Source of the DNA: Rhizophagus irregularis
Taxonomy: Eukaryota > Glomeromycota > Glomeromycetes > Glomerales > Glomeraceae
Direction: 5' to 3'
NCBI RefSeq assembly: GCF_026210795.1
Contig: NC_089452.1
Span: forward strand, 3,348,001-3,412,000
DNA length: 64,000 bases
Shown: positions 14,313-57,037 of the stretch, in pieces
How the letters are laid out: every line of letters begins with the position of its first letter
Position numbering within the stretch: the stretch's first letter is position 1
Notes under the pieces: model-generated
What the model saw: the letters and a program-made list of their open reading frames with translations, nothing else
The model's database searches: none
Told to the model about the DNA's origin: nothing
Position numbers and translations under genes: made by a program

Positions 14313-15919
14313 AGGAAATTGCTAACCGTGGGCGATTATCGCCTGGGACCTCGATCACGTGACAGATTTAATATTTTTGATTGGCCAGATTGGCCACATG
14401 ATCGTGTCATGTTTATTTGTTTATCGAATCTCCGTTTTTCAGTTTTTTCGGTGTCTCAGTTCTCAAGGTATTTTTCTTTTCTTTTATTTTTATTTCTAAC
14501 TTACATTCTGCTTACACTTTGTTTCTTACTACTCTATTTCATTATTTTTAGGTCCTTTAGTCCTTCCGGTTCTGTAATTAAGGTTCAGTTGTTTTTCACT
14601 TTACGTTTCATTTCTTTATTTTTTTATTATTTTTATTTTGTTTCTGTTTCATATTTCGGTTTTCAACGATTTTATTTAGATATTTTAGTTCTTTCGGTTC
14701 TACAATTAATAAAGGTATTTTTTTTTATTTTATTTATTTATTTTTTTTATTTCGTTTCTATCTTATATTTCGTTCCTTACTAACTTCAATTTTTTTTACT
14801 TTATCTGTTATGGTTTTATTTTTTACTTGGTTTCATCATTACCCAACCTCCTATCATAATCATTTTTTTATTTTTTGTATTACTTCTCATTATTCCATCT
14901 TTTCGTCGTCCATTATTTTCTATTACAACTTTTCATTTTCTATTATCTCTTTTTCTCTCCTGTTTACTTCCCATCATTTCCTTTTGCCTCTCATCCCTCC
15001 TTTTCGTTTTCCATCAACTCCTCTCCATCTGTCCATTACTTCTTCTTCTTTTCGTCTCCCATCGCTCATTTTCGTCTTCCATCACTTCTTTTCGCCTCCC
15101 ATCACTTCTTTTCGTCCCTCATCACTCCTTATCGTCTCCCATCACTCCTCTTCATCTTCCCATCGCTCATTTTCGTCTCCAATCGCTCATTTTCGTCTCC
15201 CATCACTCCTTTTCGTCTCCCATCACTTCTTTTCGTCTCCCATCGCTTCTCTTCATCTTCCTATCACATCTTTTCGTCTCCCATCACCCCTTTTACCTTT
15301 AATCACTCTTCTTCGTCTCCCATCACTTCTTTTTGTCTCTCATCACTCCTTATCGTCTCCATCACTTCTTTTCATCTTCCATCACTCATCTTCATCTTCC
15401 CATCACTTCTTTTCCTTTTTACCTCCCATCACTCCTTTTAATTTCTCATCATGTCCTACTTCTCCTTTTTGTTTCCTATCACTTCTCATTACTCTTTTTC
15501 ATCTTCCATTACTTTCCATTACTCCATTGTTGTTTCATTTTTTTTTATTAGCATCTTTCTCCTTGATCATTGTAATTTACTTATCTTTTTTATTTATTGT
15601 TATTGTTATTGATTTTTTTTATTTGTATTGCTTCATTAAAAATAAATACGGTGATTGTTTTCTTTAAAATCGTAAATGTGTGACTTAAATTTTAATATTT
15701 GTGAATAAAAATATAATTTCCTTAAAATAAGATTTATCTTGAATAAATGTGTTTGCAAAAATTTTTTTTAAAAAACATCTTCGCAATAAAATTTTAAGTT
15801 TAACCGATCAAAAGTTAAAAAATCAGCCATCAGCCGATTTACTGTATATTGTACATCATGTGACATATTTGAAAAAAAACCCAGGCGATGATCGCCCAGG
15901 CGACGGTTAGCAATTCCCT
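14313..15919. mobile_element. 1.6-kb TIR element carrying a C/T minisatellite
   Basis: The left end AGGAAATTGCTAACCG, then GGGCGATTATCGCCTGGG, is mirrored at the right end by CCCAGGCGATGATCGCCC, then CGGTTAGCAATTCCCT. The outermost ATTGCTAA word is shared with the 140-bp elements at 4092 and 12097, suggesting one superfamily. T-rich flanks make the target duplication unclear. The interior is pyrimidine-rich on the plus strand and has no transposase frame, so it would be non-autonomous. Confidence 0.75.
14990..15440 (+). repeat. pyrimidine-rich minisatellite, about 18-20-bp unit
   Basis: Many tandem variants of 'tcgtctcccatcactcctt' fill this stretch inside the 1.6-kb element. The strand is almost free of A/G runs, so long frames rich in Ser, His, Phe and Pro appear in all three forward phases; these are a product of composition, not genes. 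Confidence 0.85.
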
Positions 15920-20762: not shown

Positions 20763-23700
20763 ATGTCATGGAAAGAAATTGATAAAGTTGTTAATCCACA
20801 TTATGCAAAGAAACCTGATCTTGCAAAATTAATTAATGATGGAGAAGTAAAAGAAGAGAACTTAGATCATCATGCAATGCATGATCTTGCAAAAATATAT
20901 TCTAATGAAAAAGCCATTTATTGGAATGAAAAAGCAGCAGAAAATGAAAATATATGTGCAATACTTACTTTAGCTGAATGGTATAAAAATGGAATAAAAA
21001 CAGAAAAGAATTTAGAAAAAGCCTTTTATTGGTATCAAAAAGCAGCTGAAAATGGTTATAATTGCGCAATGTTTAATTTGGCAATATGTTATTACAATGG
21101 AGAAGGAACGGAGAAAAACTTAGAAATGGCCTTTTATTGGAATCAAAAAGCAGCAGAAAATGGTAATGATAATGCAATGTCTAATTTGGCATTTTGTTAT
21201 TACAATGGAGAAGGAACAGAGAAGAACTTAGAAATGGCCTTTTATTGGAATCAAAAAGCAGCAGAAAATGGTAATGATAATGCAATGTCTAATTTGGCAA
21301 TATGTTATTACAATGGAGAAGGAACGGAGAAAAACTTAGAAATGGCCTTTTATTGGAATCAAAAAGCAGCAGAAAATGGTAATGATAATGCCATGTCTAA
21401 TTTGGCATTTTGTTATTACAATGGAGAAGGAACGGAGAAGAACTTAGAAAAGGCCTTTTATTGGAATCAAAAAGCAGCAGAAAATGGCCACACTAATGCG
21501 ATGTTTAATTTAGCTGGATATTATTACAATGGAAAAGGAACAGAAAAGAATTTAATAAAAGCCTTTTATTGGTATCAAAAAGCAGCAGAAAATAGTAATA
21601 ACCATCATGCTATGCATGATTTAGCTGAATGTTATTACAATGGAAAAGGAATAGAAAAGAACTTTGATAAAGCCTTTTATTGGCATCAAAAAGCAGCAGA
21701 AAATGGTAATAAATGTGCAATGAATCATTTAGCCCATTATTATAATAATGGAGAAGGAACAGAAAAGAATTTAGAAAAAGCCTTTTATTGGTGTCAAAAA
21801 GCATTTGAAAATGGTAATAATGATGTAATATTTAATTTGGCTGAATTTTATTTCAACGGAAAAAGAACAAAAGAGAATTTTGAAAAAGCCTTTTATTGGT
21901 GTCAAAAAGCAGCAAAAAATGGTCACATTGGTGCAATGAATCATTTGGCTATGTGTTATTACAATGGAGAAGGAACAAAAAAGAATTTAGAAAAAGCCTT
22001 TTATTGGTATCAAAAAGCAGCTGAAAATGGTAGTATATGTGCAATTAATCATTTAGCTGAATGTTATGAAAATGGAGAAGGAACAGAAAAGAACTTTGAT
22101 AAAGCATTTGACTGGTATCAAAAAGCAGCTGAAAATGGTGATAAATGTGCAATGAATCATTTAGCCAAATATTATGAAAATGGGAAAGGATCAGAAAAGA
22201 ATTTAAAAAAAGCTTTTGATTGGTATCAAAAAGCAGCAGAAAATGATCATATTGATGCAATGAATCATTTGGCTATATGTTATTATAATGGAAAAGGAAC
22301 AGAAAAGAATTTAGAAAGAGCCTTTTATTGGTGTCAAAAAGCAGCAGAAAATGGTCACATTGATGCAATGAGTTATTTGGCTATATGTTATTACAATGGA
22401 GAAGGAACAGAAAAGAATTTAGAAAAAGCTTTTGATTGGTATCAGAAAGCAGCAGAAAATGGTCACACCAATGCAATGTTTAATTTAGCTATATATTATT
22501 ACAATGGAGAAGGAATAAAAAAGAACTTAGAAAAAGCCTTTAATTGGTATCAAAAAGCAGCAGAAAATGGTCATATTGATGCAATGTTTAATTTGGCTAT
22601 ATGCTATTACAGTAAAGAAGAAGCGGAAAAGAATTTTAAAAAAGCCTATCAAAATGCAATTAAAAATAGTTATATTATTAATACATTGTTTAATTATTAT
22701 AATAAAATAAAAACAAAAAAGAATTTAAAAAAAGCCTTTAACTGGTATCAAAAAGCAGCAGAAAATGATCATATTAATGCAATGTTTAATTTGGCTATAT
22801 GTTATTACAATGGAAAAGGAACAGAAAAGAGTTTAGAAAAAGCCTTTTATTGGCATCAAAAAGCAGCAGAATATGGTCATACTAATGCAATAAAAATGGC
22901 CTTTTATTGGTATCAAAAAGCAGCAGAAAATGGTAATGATAATGCAATGTTTAATTTGGCAATATGTTATAGAAATGGTAAAGTAATAAAAAAGAATTTG
23001 GAAAAAGCTTTTTATTGGTGTCAAAAAGCAGCAGAAAACAATAATTATAATGCTATGAATATTTTAGCTATGCATTATTATGGTGGTGAAGGAACAGATA
23101 ATAACTTAGAAAAAGCCTTTTACTGGATTCAAAAATCAGCTGAAAATGATAATGAGCAAGCGCAATATATTCTTTCATTATTATATTATAATGGTAAAGG
23201 AACAGAGAAGAACTTAGAAAAAGCCTTTTATTGGTATAAAAAAACAGCAGAAAATGGACACACTAATGCGATGTTTAATTTGGCTATATGTTATTATAAT
23301 GGAAAAGGAACAGAAAAGAATTTAGAAAAAGCCTTTTATTGGTGTCAAAAAGCAATTGAAAATGGCCACACTAATGCAATAAAAAAGCTTTTTTATTGGT
23401 ATCAAAAAGCAGCTGAAAATGGTAATGACAATGCAATATTTAATTTGGCTGTATGTTATTACAATGGAAAAGGAACAGAAAAGAATTTAGAAAAAGCCTT
23501 TTATTGGTATCAAAAAGCAGTAGAAAATAGTAATAACCATCATGCTATGCACGATTTAGCTGAATGTTATTACAATGGAAAAGGAATAGAAAAGAACTTT
23601 GATAAAGCCTTTTATTGGTATCAAAAAGCAGCTGAAAATGGTAATATATGTGCAATGAATCATTTAGCCTATTGTTATAATAATAGAGAAGGAACAGAAA

Positions 23701-26547
23701 AGAATTTAGAAAAAGCCTTTTATTGGTGTCAAAAAGCAGTTGAAAATGGTAATGTTGATGCAATATTTAATTTGGCTGTATTTTATCACAATGGAGAAGG
23801 AACAGAAAAGAATTTAGATAAAGCCTTTTATTGGAATCAAAAAGCAGTTGAAAATGGTCAGATTAATGCAATGTTTAATTTAGCTATGTGTTACTACAAT
23901 GGGGAAGGAACAGAAAAGAATTTAGAAAAAGCCTTTTATTGGTGTCAAAAAGCAATTGAAAATGGTCACATTGGTGCAATGAATCATTTGGCTATATATT
24001 ATTACAATGGAGAAGGAACAGAAAAGAATTTAGAAAAAGCCTTTTATTGGTATCAAAAAGCAGCAGAAAATGGAGATACTATTGCGATGTTTAATTTGGC
24101 TAATATATATTATTACAATGGAAAAGGAGAAAAGAATTTAGAAAAAGCCTTTTATTGGTATCAAAAAGCAGCAGAAAATGGACACACAAATGCGATGTTT
24201 AATTTGGCTAGATATTATTACAATGGAGAAGGAACAGAAAAGAATTTAGAAAAATCCTTTTATTGGTGCCAAAAAGCAGTAGAAAATAGTAATAATCATC
24301 ATTTCATGCATGATTTAGCTGAAAGTTATTACAGAGGAAAAGGAATAGAAAAGAACTTTGATAAAGCCTTTTATTGGCATCAAAAAGCAGCTGAAAATGG
24401 TAATGTATGTGCAATGAATCATTTAGCCAGTTGTTATGAAAATGGAGAAGGAACAGAAAAGAATTTAGATAAAGCCTTTTATTGGTGTCAAAAAGCAGCG
24501 GAAAATGGTAACGATGATGCAATATTTAAATTGGCCGGATATTATCACAATGGAAAAGGAACAGAAAAGAATTTAGAAAAAGCCTTTTATTGGAATCAAA
24601 AAGCAGCGGAAAATGGAAACACTAATGCGATGTATAATTTGGCTAATACATATTATTATGAAGGAAAAGGAACAGAAAAGAATTTAAAAAAAGCCTTTTA
24701 TTGGTGTCAAAAAACAGTTGAAAATGGTCACATTGGTGCAATGAATCATTTGGCTGTATGTTATCACGGTGGAATAGGAATAGAAATAAATTTTAAAAAA
24801 GCCTTTTATTGGTATCAAAAGGCAGCTGAAAATGGTAATATATGTTCAATGTATCATTTAGCTGAGTGGTATAAAAATGGAAAAGGAATAGAAAAGAATT
24901 TACAAAAAACCCTTTATTGGTACCAAAAAGCAATTAAAACTGCACAAAATAATTCTAAAGCTAAATATGAGACTTGTATTCATCATGATTTAAGTAGCAA
25001 GGTAGAACTAATTAAGTCAATGGAAAGATTTATAATTGAATCAAATGAAGAGGATTATAATGAATGTCATGAATGCAATATGAAAAGAAGACCTTCAAAA
25101 AAGAATCAACAAATTTGTATAATTTGTTATCAAGCAAAATTATTATATAGGCAAAGTGGAAATAAAATTATAGACGAATTCATCAAATATACACAAATTA
25201 ATTTTATTCAAGAATCTAGCAGAATGAAATTTATTTCCTTTGATCGATTTAAAAACATAGAATTTATTAAAGCAGGAGGATTTAGTAAAATTTATAAAGC
25301 TACATGGATTGACGGTCCACATAGTTGGAATGAAGAAAAAGAAGATTTTGAATATAAAGATCCTAATATAATAGTTGCTTTAAAACAGCTTAATAACTCT
25401 GAAAATATTTCACTCGAAGAGTTAAAAGAGGTAAGCAAATTATTTTATTTAATTTTAACAATAATCTATTTTTTTAATATAATAAGGAAGACTTACATTA
25501 ATTTTATAATTTCAGCTTTTAATGATTTATATTGCTGATATAGACAATAATTTTATTGATTCTTCACTTTATTTAAATGAATATTATGGAATTACTCAAA
25601 ATCCCGATACTAAAGATTTTATTATAATTATGAAATATTATAAATTTGATTTAAGAAATTATATAACAAAAAGTAAAGACTTTTATAATATTGAATGGAA
25701 TAAAAAATTAAAAATACTCAGGTATATTGCCGTAGGACTTAATCATCTTCATAATCAAGGTATTATTCATCGAGATTTGCATAGTGGAAATATTCTTTGT
25801 GAAAATGATGATTATGTAGTAATAAGTGATTTAGGAATAAGTAAATCAGCAATGGAATCCACAAATGATAATAAGAGTGTATATGGTATTATTCCATATA
25901 TGGCTCCAGAGATTTTGCAAAGAAAAGAATATACTATATGTTCGGATATTTACAGTTTTGGTATGATCATGTGGGAACTTATGACAGGTAGATTACCATT
26001 TGAGGATCAAACTAACGATGTTGGACTTGTGAGTAAAATATGCTATGATGGCCTTCTCCCTCCAATAACAGCTAATGCACCTAAGGGTTATATTGAACTG
26101 ATGCAAGAATGCTGGAATTCCGATCCTGATAAAAGACCAGAAGCTGATAATATAAATAATAGGTTATGTATTATGTTAAATGAAGAAGTTAGTAATCCAA
26201 CAGAAATTATAAAATCGACAGATATTGCACCTATAGATAATCCAAAAAGTAAACAATTAAGCAATGAAATATTTACAAGTTCGAAAGAACTAGGTAATTA
26301 ACCTGATTTTACTAATTAAAATCGTTTTTTTATAATATTAAACTTAATACTTTTTTCTTAATTATTTAGAGCCACTTTATCCAAAAAAAAGAATGATTGA
26401 AAATAATCTAATTAAAGATACTAATTGTGGTATGTTTCGTTAAATTATCTTCGTATAACAAATTAAAGAAGTCAATATTAATTAACTTATTACTTTTTAG
26501 GACGTTGTTATATAACGAAAGCAAATGAATTTGACATTGATATTTAA
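20763..26547 (+). CDS. Sel1-repeat array fused to a TKL-type protein kinase (1850 aa)
   Basis: Exons 20763-25430, 25516-26293, 26370-26429 and 26501-26547 (introns 85, 76 and 71 nt; donors GTAAGC, GTAATT, GTATGT; acceptors CAG/TAG/TAG) join in frame to a TAA, giving 1850 aa. Residues about 40-1400 are about 39 Sel1-like repeats of 36 residues (pattern A..NLA.CYYNG.GTEKNLEKAFYW.QKAAENG), two of them truncated. Then follow a paired CxxC knuckle (CHEC...CIIC, about 1434-1457) and a complete kinase domain: glycine loop GGFSKIY (about 1505), VALK lysine, HRDLHSGNIL (about 1641), DLG (about 1659), APE (about 1686) and SDIYSFGMIMWE. The last small exons encode a tail ending NEFDIDI. Sel1 repeats act as protein-binding scaffolds, and the kinase looks catalytically competent (inference). 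In many related fungal proteins the Sel1 part follows the kinase; here it precedes it. Confidence 0.88.
20880..24960 (+). repeat. 108-bp coding tandem repeat (Sel1 units)
   Basis: About 39 units of 108 bp encode the Sel1-like repeats of the gene above. Units are very similar in sequence, especially the first block (21060-21480), where four successive units differ by a few bases. A marked variant with SNNHHAMHDLAE recurs at units 8, 27 and 34 together with its neighbours, showing duplication of multi-unit blocks. Two units (about 22880 and 23380) have lost about 51 bp without breaking the frame. Confidence 0.9.
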
Positions 26548-50641: not shown

Positions 50642-53600
50642 TTACTCATCTTTAATTATACAATCATCCAAATCTTCAGTCATACCAGTAGAAGAACAGC
50701 TTGCATGATAATTTTGTGAATCTTCACTTTCAAGAATTTCATTCAATTCTTTACTAGTAAAATCAAGTAAGCGACTTGTATAACATGTTTGTGGATGAGA
50801 TTCAGTAGCGAGATTGTTATGCCCAATTGGTGCATTTATAAATTCCATAATGTTGCTTTTTAATTCTTCACTGACTTTATAAGGACGGAAAATCCAATTA
50901 TCAATAACATCTTTCACTTTTAATGCAGATGGTCTTTTTAATGGATCTTCATTCCAACATTTTTTCATTAAATCTACATAACATTGTGGAGTATTTTCAA
51001 TAATTTCAGGACGTTCACCTTTACAAATACTTAAACTAAGTTGAAGATCATGTGCTCTATTATTAAATGGTGGTATTCCAGATGTAAACTCCCACATAAT
51101 CATAGAAAAACTATATATATCACTAGCTGGAGTATAAGATTTGCCTCTTAAAACTTCAGGTGCCATAAACGGAATAACACCATAAATATCATATTTTTTC
51201 AAAAACGATTTTATAGGTTGACATAATCCCAAATCACTAATATAAATTTTATCCTTATTCTTTTCATTATGATTTAAAATATTACCATCATGAAAATCAC
51301 AATGAATAAGATTTTCTCCATGAATTTTACTAAGTCCAGAAATAATTTCGTACAACATAAATAGTTTTTGATTCCAATTATTTTCGACTATTGTTGTTAA
51401 ATTTTCTCTTAAGTTACCTTTATTCGCATATTCCATTACTACCATAAATTTTGAAGTATTTGGATCTTCTGTAAATCCATAAAAATTTATAATATCATTT
51501 GAATCTAAAACACTTGTATGATATTCCCACTATAAAAAGTAATAATAGTTTATTAATATAAATAAATTTTAATTTAAATTAAGAAATAGAAAATAATATA
51601 TCATACTTCTTTTAAAAATTCATTTAAGTTTTCATTTAAATTCTTGTGACATTTAAGAATTACTTCTTCGTCTCTATCATACTTTAACCAAGTAGCTTTA
51701 TATATAGTACCAAATCCTCCTTCATTAAGATATTCAATATTTTTAAATCTATTATAAGGAATCCATTTTAAATTTTTTTTAAAAATAAAATCATCCATAA
51801 TTTCATTTCCACTTTTCTCAAATCTATAAATTTAAATAATTAAAATTATATTATAGATTGTATTATAATTACACTAAAATAAATTATTTACTTACACTAA
51901 AATTTAAATAGGAATTTAATGTAGTATAATTCTTAGTTTTTGGACAAATACATATACAGTAATAACCTATAATTTACAACTTACCTACAAAAGTAACAGA
52001 TATTTTTTAAATGAAAGAATTCAGTTAACAAATAAATATTATATAAAATATATAACAATAGAGATACTTACAAGCTAGATCATAAATAATTTTTTAAATA
52101 AAGAAATTAGATAGTTAAATTATATGTAAATATTATAACAATAAGTAATAATAGAATTAAATAAATAAATTACTATGACTTACCAACTAAAATAAATTAC
52201 AAAATAATTTTTTAAATAAAGAAATTAGTTAGTTTAAATTATATGTAAATAACTAATAATAGAATTAAATAAATAAATTACTAGTATGACTTACTAACTA
52301 AAATAAATTACAAAATAATTTTTTAAATAAAGAAATTAGATAGTTAAATTATATGTAAATATTATAACAATAAGTAATAATAGAATTAAATAAATAACTT
52401 ACCATCTATAAAATAATTTTTTAAATAAAGAAATTGGATAGTTTAAATTATATGTAAATATTATAACAATAACTAATAATAGAATTAAATAAATAACTTA
52501 CTCCCTATATTATTTAATAATTTTTAAATAAAGAAATTAGTTAGTTTAAATTATATGTATATATTATAACAATAAGTAATAATAGAATTAAATAAATAAC
52601 TTATAACTTACGATCTATTAAATAAAGAAATTAGTTAGTTTAAATTATAAGTAAATATTATAACAATAAGTAATAATAGAATTAAATAAATAAATTACTA
52701 TGACTTACCAACTAAAATAAATTACAAAATAATTTTTTAAATAAAGAAAATAGTTAGTTTAAATTATATGTATATATTATAACAATAAGTAATAATAGAA
52801 TTAAATAAATAACTTATAACTTACGATCTATTAAATAAAGAAATTAGTTAGTTTAAATTATAAGTAAATATTATAACAATAAGTAATAATAGAATTAATT
52901 AAATAACTTACTCCCTATATTATTTAATAATTTTTTAAATAAAGAAATTAGATAGTTTAAATTATATGTAAATATTATAACAATAAGTAATAATAGAATC
53001 AAATAAATAACTTACTCCCTATATTATTTAATAATTTTTAAATAAAGAAATTAGTTAGTTTAAATTATAAGTAAATATTATAACAATAAGTAATAATAGA
53101 ATTAAATAAATAACTTACTCCCTATATTATTTAATGATTTTTTAAATAAAGAAATTAGTTAGTTTAAATTATATGTAAATATTATAACAATAAGTAATAA
53201 TAGAATTAGATAAATAACTTACAATCTAAAGGAAATTACAAAATAATTTTTTAAATAAAGAAATTGGATAGTTTAAATTATATGTAAATATTATAACAAT
53301 AACTAATAATAGAATTAAATAAATAACTTACTCCCTATATTATTTAATAATTTTTAAATAAAGAAATTAGTTAGTTTAAATTATAAGTAAATATTATAAC
53401 AATAAGTAATAATAGAATTAAATAAATAACTTACTCCCTATATTATTTAATGATTTTTTAAATAAAGAAATTAGTTAGTTTAAATTATATGTAAATATTA
53501 TAACAATAAGTAATAATAGAATTAGATAAATAAATTTTTAATAAACTTGAAATATAAAAGAAAAAAAAAAAATAGAATTAAAATAAATAACTTATAACTT

Positions 53601-56600
53601 ACGATCTATTAAATAAAGAAATTAGATAGTTTAAATTATATGTAAATATTATAACAATAAGTAATAATATAATTAAATAAATAACTTACACCCTATATTA
53701 TTTAATAATTTTTTAAATAAAGAAATTAGTTAGTTTAAATTATATGTAAATATTATAACAATAAGTAATAATAGAATTAAATAAATAACTTACCATCTAT
53801 AAAATAATTTTTTAAATAAAGAAATTAGATAGTTTAAATTATATGTAAATATTATAACAATAAGTAATAATAGAATTAAATAAATAACTTACCATCTATA
53901 AAATAATTTTTTAAATAAAGAAATTAGATAGTTTAAATTATATGTAAATATTATAACAATAAGTAATAATAGAATTAAATAAATAACTTACACCCTATAT
54001 TATTTAATAATTTTTTAAATAAAGAAATTAGATAGTAGTTTAAATTATATGTAAATATTATAACAATTAGTAATAATAGAATTAAATAAATAACTTACTC
54101 GCTATATTATTTAATAATTTTTAAATAAAGAAATTAGATAGTTTAAATTATATGTAAATGTTATAACAATAAGTAATAATAGAATTAAATAAATAACTTA
54201 CTCGCTATATCATTTAATAATTTTTTAAATAAAGAAATTAGATAGTTTAAATTATATGTAAATATTATAACAATAACTAATAATAGAATTAAATAAATAA
54301 CTTACTCCCTATATTATTTAATAATTTTTAAATAAAGAAATTAGTTAGTTTAAATTATATGTAAATGTTATAACAATAAGTAATAATAGAATTAAATAAA
54401 TAACTTATAACTTACGATCTATTAAATAAAGAAAATAGTTAGTTTAAATTATATGTAAATATTATAACAATAAGTAATAATAGAATTAAATAAATAACTT
54501 ACTCGCTATATCATTTAATAATTTTTTAAATAAAGAAATTAGATAGTTTAAATTATATGTAAATATTATAACAATAAGTAATAATAGAATTAAATAAATA
54601 ACTTACCATCTATAAAATAATTTTTTAAATAAAGAAATTAGATAGTTTAAATTATATGTAAATATTATAACAATAAGTAATAATAGAATTAAATAAATAA
54701 ATTACTATGACTTACCAACTAAAATAAATTACAAAATAATTTTTTAAATAAAGAAATTAGATAGTTTAAATTATATGTAAATATTATAAAAATAAGTAAG
54801 AATAGAATTAAATAAATAACTTACACACTATATTATTTAATAATTTTTAAATAAAGAAATTAGTTAGTTTAAATTATATGTAAATATTATAACAATAAGT
54901 AATAATAAAATTAAATAAATAACTTACACCCTATATTATTTAATAATTTTTTAAATAAAGAAATTAGATAGTAGTTTAAATTATATGTAAATATTATAAC
55001 AATTAGTAATAATAGAATTAAATAAATAACTTACTCGCTATATTATTTAATAATTTTTAAATAAAGAAATTAGATAGTTTAAATTATATGTAAATGTTAT
55101 AACAATAAGTAATAATAGAATTAAATAAATAACTTACTCGCTATATCATTTAATAATTTTTTAAATAAAGAAATTAGATAGTTTAAATTATATGTAAATA
55201 TTATAACAATAAGTAATAATAGAATTAAATAAATAACTTACCATCTATAAAATAATTTTTTAAATAAAGAAATTAGATAGTTTAAATTATATGTAAATAT
55301 TATAACAATAAGTAATAATAGAATTAAATAAATAAATTACTATGACTTACCAACTAAAATAAATTACAAAATAATTTTTTAAATAAAGAAATTAGATAGT
55401 TTAAATTATATGTAAATATTATAAAAATAAGTAAGAATAGAATTAAATAAATAACTTACACCCTATATTATTTAATAATTTTTAAATAAAGAAATTAGAT
55501 AGTTTAAATTATATGTAAATATTATAACAATAAGTAATAATAGAATTAAATAAATAACTTACCATCTATAAAATAATTTTTTAAATAAAGAAATTAGATA
55601 GTTTAAATTATATGTAAATATTATAACAATAAGTAATAATAGAATTAAATAAATAACTTACACCCTATATTATTTAATAATTTTTTAAATAAAGAAATTA
55701 GATAGTTTAAATTATATGTAAATATTATAAAAATAAGTAAGAATAGAATTAAATAAATAACTTACACCCTATATTATTTAATAATTTTTAAATAAAGAAA
55801 TTAGATAGTTTAAATTATATGTAAATATTATAACAATAAGTAATAATAGAATTAAATAAATAACTTACACCCTATATTATTTAATAATTTTTTAAATAAA
55901 GAAATTAGATAGTAGTTTAAATTATATGTAAATATTATAACAATTAGTAATAATAGAATTAAATAAATAAATTACTATGACTTACCAGCTAAAATAAATT
56001 ACAAAATAATTTTTTAAATAAAGAAATTAGTATGTTTAAATTATATGTAAATATTAGAACAATAAGTAATAATAGAATTAAATAAATAACTTACAATCTA
56101 AAGGAAATTACAAAATAATTTTTTAAATAAAGAAATTGGATAGTTTAAATTATATGTAAATATTATAACAATAAGTAATAATAGAATTAAATAAATAACT
56201 TACTCCCTATATTATTTAATAATTTTTTAAATAAAGTAATTAGTTAGTTTAAATTATATAAATAATATAAATATAGATGTCATATAACTTACACCCTGTA
56301 GTATTATTAATTATTAATTAGTTAGACATAAAGATAATATAAAAGTATTTACTATAAATTATATATATTACTTACAATCTAATTATTTAATTAAGAATAT
56401 AGTTAGTTGAATTATGTAATATTGAACAAATATATATAATATATATATTTGACTTACCATCTGTAATATAATTAATTATTTAAACAAAGAATTTAGTTAT
56501 TTGAATATTTTATAAAATAAGTAAAGTAAAGAACTAAAGATTTGAATAACTGATAACTTACTGACTATAGTATTATTAAGCATTAAATGAATTATTTAGT

Positions 56601-57037
56601 TACATGAAATATAATTAAAATAATAAGTAATCCCATAGTTATTCAATTATAAGATAACTTATTAACTTACGAGCTAAATTATTTAATATAATTTCCATTT
56701 GTATAATGTAGATAGTTTAAGTTATATTTGTATATTATATAAGATAGATAGTAATATTTAAGTTCATTTACAAATAAAAATTTAATACTTCAGTTTGTTT
56801 AATATACCTTTAGACTCCTCAGTGCTACTTTCTTCAAATTCCTCAGAGCCATTTCCTTCGAATTCCTCAGAGCCACTTTCCTCAAATTCTTTAGTGTTAC
56901 TCCCTTCAAATTCTTTAATACTACTGGAATCTAGTTTTATTATATTGCAAATTTATTTAAAAATTTTAGAAATTCTGATTATATTAATTATTTATGCTAT
57001 ATATATGGTTATTACCTTTATTATTACTGTGAGCCAT
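50642..57037 (-). CDS. TKL-type protein kinase gene with an intron/3-nt-exon array
   Basis: Minus-strand model: exon 1 57037-57016 (MAHSNNK), exon 2 56930-56808 (acidic, FEESGSEEFEGNGSEEFEES-like repeats, ends in phase 1), then the array at 51967-56807, exon C 51966-51896 (YYCICICPKTKNYTTLNSYL, open only in phase 1), exon A 51816-51607 (SGNEIMDDF..., glycine loop GGFGTIY, VILK) and exon B 51529-50642. Skipping the whole array gives 437 aa in frame. Exon B has HCDFHDGNIL (Cys where Arg is usual in HRD; catalytic Asp kept), DLG, FMAPE and SDIYSFSMIMWE, and ends at TAA 50642. The exon A acceptor is a weak GAG; a TAG seven bases upstream would create an in-frame stop, so that junction needs checking. 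Each 3-nt unit of the array that is spliced in would add one residue between the acidic head and the knuckle. Confidence 0.72.
51967..56807 (-). repeat. array of 46 intron-shaped units separated by 45 three-nucleotide spacers
   Basis: Read on the minus strand, the unit is GTAAGT, about 90 nt containing TTATTACTTATTGTTATAAT and ACTATCTAATTTC (CTAAT, branch-point-like), then a TAG, then exactly three bases, then the next GTAAGT. The period is about 99-110 bp. For example, two adjacent GTAAGT donors at 53892 and 53991 enclose a 96-nt intron plus 3 nt. The 45 triplets, from 56671-56673 to 52072-52074, are of 13 kinds: GGA, GGT, CGA, ATG, ATC, ATT, TTG, CTG, TTA, CTT, TGT, TCA and CTC. Donor GTAAGT and acceptor YAG are kept in every unit. 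One interval (about 53436-53602) holds a worn unit without a donor. Unit subtypes are interspersed, with multi-unit blocks repeated. Confidence 0.88.

Follow-up and report, generated by a model that had tools for sequence, protein, structure and literature searches.

Very short exons and nearly juxtaposed splice sites have been described in several systems. The exons of the schistosome micro-exon genes (MEGs) measure 6–81 bp, mostly 15 bp, in the body text of one account and 3–81 bp in its abstract, and the genes feature a signal peptide and alternative splicing (PMC10526429). At the ratchet points of Drosophila, which lie in long introns, usually nothing and occasionally one RS-exon is left in the mRNA, according to PMC8605326. 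Single-nucleotide exons are reported from Arabidopsis APC11 (PMC4674806) and plant VPS55 (PMC8831610); the authors of the APC11 study consider the 1-nt exon too small for the factors of both flanks, and the introns to be removed one after another. In Drosophila homothorax, a single 3-nt microexon is alternatively spliced (PMC7392893).

Here we describe predicted arrays of 3-nt exons in kinase genes of Rhizophagus irregularis, starting from an earlier note on a stretch of 64,000 nt (the window, C24:3348001-3412000). Like the schistosome MEGs, these genes contain a run of many short, mostly frame-preserving exons and belong to an expanded family; unlike them, they carry dozens of consecutive uniform 3-nt exons before a kinase domain, without a sign of selected skipping, and the predicted N-terminus of the window gene is hydrophilic. 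As at the Drosophila ratchet points, acceptor and donor are almost juxtaposed and stepwise removal is likely, but each step would add three coding nucleotides, and the introns are ~95 nt long. A 1-nt exon setting the frame is shared with APC11 and VPS55, where it is an isolated exon of two gene families, whereas here it closes arrays of 3-nt exons and its pattern has 122 matches in the genome. The homothorax microexon has the size of those in the arrays but is one isolated, alternatively spliced exon. Each of these phenomena (the single 3-nt exon, the 1-nt exon, the ratchet point and the micro-exon gene) is known by itself, none of them matches the arrays on all the features tested, and we file the arrays at the far edge of the micro-exon-gene kind. 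Literature searches among open-licence papers listed none whose title or abstract opening describes such arrays.

The array-bearing kinase gene of the window

The gene is read from the minus strand. Exon 1 (57016..57037, 22 nt) encodes MAHSNNK plus one base and ends in phase 1. Exon 2 (56808..56930, 123 nt) encodes acidic repeats of the SEEFE type, has phase 1 at both ends and is followed by the donor GTATAT, from 56807. The array of 45 3-nt exons extends over 52072..56673, separated by introns of ~100 nt (median 101 nt). After the last triplet, the series continues with a zero-nt AG/GT junction, TTTTGTAG/GTAAGTTG (51984..51985), and a single-nucleotide exon, T, at 51896, which is flanked by TTTTAG and GTAAGT and turns phase 1 into phase 2. 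The first kinase exon (51607..51823, 217 nt) needs phase 2 and encodes FEKSGN...WIPYNRFKNIEYLNEGGFGTIYKATW...LKE, and the second (50642..51529, 888 nt including the stop) encodes WEYHTS...IIKDE.

All 45 triplets are framed AG/NNN/GTAAGT on the minus strand, 43 of them by TAG and two by CAG (56458-56460, ATG, and 56293-56295, GGT). The 43 TAG-form triplets compare with 0.42 expected by chance in the whole window, and 100 dinucleotide-shuffled versions of the window all gave fewer. A 3-nt insert occupies 45 of the 46 near-juxtaposed acceptor/donor sites, the other being the zero-nt site (51985/51984), which looks like a precise 3-nt loss, because 17 of 27 parsed arrays have TTG as their last 3-nt exon. 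The earlier note had counted the same 45 triplets and the same 13 triplet values but had given TAG to all of them; it had also placed the array boundary at 51967, where an AG lies within an intron; the series runs on as far as the kinase exon, whose first base is 51823. Its view of an amplified intron-plus-microexon unit with real splice signals in a kinase gene is supported. In one unit (53521-53600), the intron is longer (168-nt spacing) and holds a T-rich insert foreign to the repeat.

Exons 1 and 2 bring the reading frame to phase 1 at the start of the array; 45 × 3 + 1 nt then follow, and the kinase exon is entered in phase 2. The joined model comprises 461 residues with the terminal stop only. 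When the whole array is skipped the frame shifts and a stop appears at codon 67; when only the 1-nt exon is left out, a stop appears at codon 112; without any triplet but with the 1-nt exon, the frame is kept. Starting from phase 1, whole triplets, however many, leave the phase as it is and one extra nucleotide makes it phase 2; in the window the frame needs the 1-nt exon. The spliced model contains a nearly complete kinase domain: the profile PF07714 matches it at 8.5e-42 and is covered from position 4 to 254 of 258, compared with 58-255 for the second kinase exon alone. PF00069 matches the model at 4.9e-38, so a protein kinase domain is present, which we take to be of the TKL type. Read in phase 1, the 45 triplets give a 45-residue segment, ALNDWWNSGWWYGFDATRLFDANRTTRYDGYRRNWRRNLDRNVIA, with the acidic N-terminus before it and the kinase domain after it. 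The predicted N-terminus, MAHSNNKDSSSIKEFEG, is hydrophilic, lies upstream of the kinase domain and has, by eye, no signal-peptide character.

Two other tandem repeats occur in the window. One (20907-24932) is long, has 108 nt (36 codons) per unit, and its consensus resembles Sel1-type repeats; the other (15048-15414) consists of ~18 copies of the 20-nt unit CTTTTCGTCTCCCATCACTC.

Size rule and genome-wide scale

We searched both strands of the genome (146,748,485 bases, 32 contigs) for unit pairs of the form GTAAGT, 75-105 nt, TAG, k nt, GTAAGT, with the same pattern reversed as the control. A spacing of 3 nt gave 3738 matches against 23 in the control. The counts for 2 nt (19 vs 22), 4 nt (19 vs 23) and 5 nt (25 vs 33) stayed near or below those of the control, 6 nt showed a modest enrichment (68 vs 14), and zero-nt units showed none (105 vs 157). 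Judged by eye, ~30 of the 68 6-nt matches, ~7 of the 19 2-nt matches, 3 of the 19 4-nt matches and none of the 25 5-nt matches have introns like those of the arrays; some 2-nt and 4-nt matches are array-like, and therefore a few frame-breaking units exist. The preference for 3 nt, and weakly for 6 nt, is what translation would impose.

These counts bear on strict recursive splicing, in which the units would be ratchet points and one long intron would be removed stepwise, leaving nothing in the mRNA. The nearly juxtaposed AG and GTAAGT, the true AG/GT site of the window array and the intact frame of the window model with the 1-nt exon alone all suit such a process. However, it is the 3-nt and not the zero-nt units that are enriched, and both the enrichment of 6 nt but not of 2, 4 or 5 nt and the neighbour-specific avoidance of stops described below need translated triplets; we regard strict recursive splicing as very improbable.

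Within the spans of 27 arrays, a 3-nt exon precedes 689 of the 716 GTAAGT/GTATGT donors, with AG at exactly -5, although these spans were themselves defined by 3-nt units. Such regularity is hard to reconcile with a non-coding intronic minisatellite that has intron-like ends by chance and is skipped as a whole. The introns of one array are indeed alike, as a minisatellite would have them (mean commonest-base frequency 0.85-0.95 in eight arrays), and the repeat introns of the window were amplified in blocks. Nevertheless, skipping the whole array shifts the frame into the stop at codon 67, and the 3-nt rule, the 1-nt exon and the stop avoidance would be left without explanation, which makes a non-coding repeat hardly credible.

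The pattern of the 1-nt exon (GTAAGT, 65-95 nt, TTTAG, one nt, GTAAGT) has its 122 genome-wide matches against 5 in the control, with one place counted twice (C7:3159737 and 3159744). The arrays L001-L006 were taken from the top of the list of 3-nt matches, independently of the 1-nt exon, and all six contain it; its base is A in these six and T in the window. A further 20 arrays (L007-L026) were chosen among 100 listed of the 122 matches and have the exon by construction, so the unbiased evidence consists of the 122 vs 5 matches and the six of six arrays.

The 27 arrays hold 873 triplets and lie on 18 contigs; their triplet vocabularies differ by eye, and an assembly artefact was rejected. The parser retains the longest run per locus, so that L010, L012 and L020 are among the arrays counted in part, and some of the fetched stretches truncate the 5' end of the array. 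The largest parsed array, L025, has 62 units, including one doubtful slot, with its 5' end cut off. The introns have a median length of 95 nt (5-95%, 78-109 nt; n = 806), and in 749 of the 806 a YTRAY branch-like word lies upstream of the 3' splice site at a distance of 10-60 nt, such words being common in AT-rich DNA. Units with a GC donor and intact 3-nt spacing were seen as TAG/AAG/GCAAGT in L001 and TAG/TTG/GCAAGT in L026. An ungapped search found a similar 22-nt first exon in 15 of the 27 arrays and none in 11, the length being partly built in by a search word that includes the donor; a match in L017 was dropped, as it lacks the GT and lies 4.5 kb away. A glycine-loop motif was found in 22 arrays and by this search not in the other five of the 27; with the acceptor chosen by its likeness to that of the window, 20 of the 22 call for phase 2 at the kinase exon, the exceptions being L023, which needs phase 0, and L003, whose acceptor is ambiguous.

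We consider that arrays of this kind, of which 27 were examined, are probably present in more than 100 kinase genes. In a protein search, at least 150 kinase exons match the decoded L002 sequence, arrays having been shown for not all of them. A long-read study of this assembly counted 2,533 kinases in R. irregularis and mapped its long RNA reads with an intron limit of 3000 nt (PMC10234402). Exons of 3 nt would be hard to place by such mapping, and the accessible part of that paper makes no mention of 3-nt exon arrays.

Other intron-shaped arrays were observed during these searches. On the minus strand of C9:1015200-1016800 (L027:1-1601), a second, unrelated tandem array has units of ~95 nt, in which a 25-nt exon-like piece, GGAATCGGTATAACGAATCCCATAG with variants, stands between TATAG and GTAAGT; its length is not a multiple of three, and similar matches occur on several contigs among those of the zero-nt pattern. 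On the plus strand of C18:3852700-3854200 (L028:1-1000), short exon-like pieces of varying length are separated by ~100-nt introns with GTAAGT...TTTTGTAG ends, and similar matches lie on C9, C14, C25 and C27.

Reading phase and joining of the triplets

In phase 1, a codon consists of the third base of one triplet and the first two bases of the next, and a stop arises where a T-ending triplet precedes a triplet starting with AA, AG or GA. The arrays provide 846 neighbour pairs. We set aside 40 that are more than 130 nt apart, because an intervening unit may have decayed; two of these 40 form stops (L006 and L018). Among the remaining 806 pairs in the 27 arrays there is no phase-1 stop, against ~31-32 expected (19-48 in 2000 within-array shuffles). 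Phase 2 was rejected for the triplets with 122 stops, and phase 0 with one stop and a misfit with the flanks. The arrays able to form a phase-1 stop number 22 of the 27. The stop-freedom of the window array is by itself uninformative, because none of its triplets begins with AA, AG or GA.

The avoidance is confined to immediate neighbours. At lag 2, 30 of 744 pairs form stops, with 28.6 expected, and at lag 3 there are 37 with 26.1 expected; all lags from 2 to 8 fall within or above the shuffled range, the lowest relative value being 19 vs 20.1 at lag 7. When distinct pairs are counted once per array, lag 1 has no stop in 615 pairs (28.8 expected) and lag 2 has 26 in 565 (26.6 expected). Since stops are absent at lag 1 and as frequent as expected at lag 2, each triplet would be joined to the next one and translated with it, and the predicted message that selection sees carries every microexon, in order. 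The codon usage of the kinase exons best fits phase 1 in 22 of the 27 arrays, phase 0 in four and phase 2 in one. Over the whole genome, a scan for triplets ending in T with AAN or AGN as the next triplet gave 14 matches, of which, by eye, nine belong to an unrelated repeat and ~5 are array-like; the same scan with a C-ending triplet gave 176 matches, at least three of them unrelated by eye among the 100 matches listed.

The lag counts also bear on combinatorial skipping, in which the units would be alternative cassettes and each gene would yield very many isoforms. Skips of whole units do keep the frame, and none of the 45 single skips in the window yields a stop. Selection on skip products would, however, extend beyond lag 1, and stops are avoided at immediate neighbours only, by the count of all pairs and by that of distinct pairs alike. 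The lag result thus indicates no selection on skip products, the frequency of skipping being a separate matter; nothing in the sequence evidence favours combinatorial skipping as a function under selection, and we consider it improbable. Zero-net recursive splicing and whole-array skipping are likewise not supported as the main route.

Among the three outputs that the earlier note had offered, the insertion of single residues holds, although as consecutive inclusion and not as a variable string, the joints of single skips not being kept stop-free. Stepwise removal of a long intron does not explain why stops are absent at lag 1 only, and complete skipping fails on the frame shift. That note had known of no described gene with such an array; the window array turns out to be one of a genome-wide class. 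Its interpretation was right in part, having missed the 1-nt exon, the reading phase and the genome-wide scale.

Contiguous copies of a decoded segment, intronless or processed, were looked for and rejected. When the decoded L002 segment was used in a protein search, 150 of 203 candidates were scored and all 150 matched; none of these matches starts before query residue 11, and those that reach the array part mostly contain stops. In six matches the start falls at residues 17-23 and no stop occurs; three of these start 31-63 nt after one of the 1-nt exons of the genome-wide list, within the last intron. With the L022 decode, the protein search returned one match (E=0.2) and the DNA search was empty, which is uninformative by itself. 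One exact 36-nt intron word, used to look for related introns that fungal contamination might have brought in, had no match in bacterial and archaeal genomes and viral contigs. The decode of L025, LEQLELERKRIELELERKRIELELELEQ, is in our reading coiled-coil-like.

Variation of the triplets and proposed route of splicing

For the alignment of units, ten arrays were cut inside their introns; the consensus of L024 lacked a donor and L025 gave no pieces, and eight were used. The mean commonest-base frequency in these eight is 0.85-0.95 for the intron, 0.86-0.97 for the donor and 0.43-0.62 for the triplet. Conservation is thus not clearly higher in the donor than in the intron, and this test shows no selection on the splice sites. 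Among 474 unit pairs with identical 48-nt flanks, the triplet differs in 24%, compared with 1-9% for 12 intronic pseudo-triplets; more than one triplet was found in 29 of 77 groups with identical 40-nt flanks, compared with 5-9 of 63-68 for six intronic controls.

Such triplet variation would fit diversifying selection in many of the arrays, although the introns used for comparison may not be neutral. A local mutation bias of the exon, or constraint on or homogenisation of the introns, could produce the same excess of differing triplets between identical flanks, and the donors show about the same conservation as the introns. Where the flanks are nearly identical, variation at the third codon position (0.136) almost equals that at the second (0.147), as a mutation bias predicts, the first standing at 0.274. 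With identical flanks, however, the third position (0.091) stands at about half of the first two (0.181 and 0.173), and in L025, with its 62 units, none of 476 close pairs differs in the triplet. Bias or intron constraint, as an account of the triplet variation only, is possible, though we think it rather unlikely.

Our preferred reading is that the array is coding: the triplets are spliced in order and the 1-nt exon sets the frame of the kinase, likely in more than 100 paralogous arrays alike. We give it a probability of roughly 0.87. After exon 2, splicing would pass through a long series of ~100-nt introns, with exactly three nucleotides added per splice, until the final one-nucleotide exon sets the frame of the kinase domain. 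The introns are probably removed one by one, most simply in the 5' to 3' direction, because 3 nt are too small for the factors of both flanking introns at once. Every step of such an additive ratchet would restore a long upstream exon with a good donor at its end. Gain or loss of a whole unit keeps the frame, and the array may therefore behave like a frame-safe minisatellite, through which the segment grows longer and more diverse; a variable recognition or linker segment would be the simplest role. The fuller picture, a hypervariable kinase region with one codon per exon, built of frame-safe cassettes with triplets diversified by selection, serving as a fast-evolving recognition or linker segment and depending on faithful successive splicing of 3-nt exons, is more tentative, and we rate it somewhat short of an even chance.

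If the coding reading is true, including dozens of 3-nt exons in a row without error would put spliceosomal exon definition to a severe test, and sequential splicing could be studied on the arrays as a natural model. The annotation of many genes in a model symbiotic fungus would then be wrong at the very places where their proteins differ most. An intron-bearing minisatellite would build and diversify protein sequence with the reading frame not at risk, and the variable stretch of these kinases would exist only after dozens of consecutive splicing steps.
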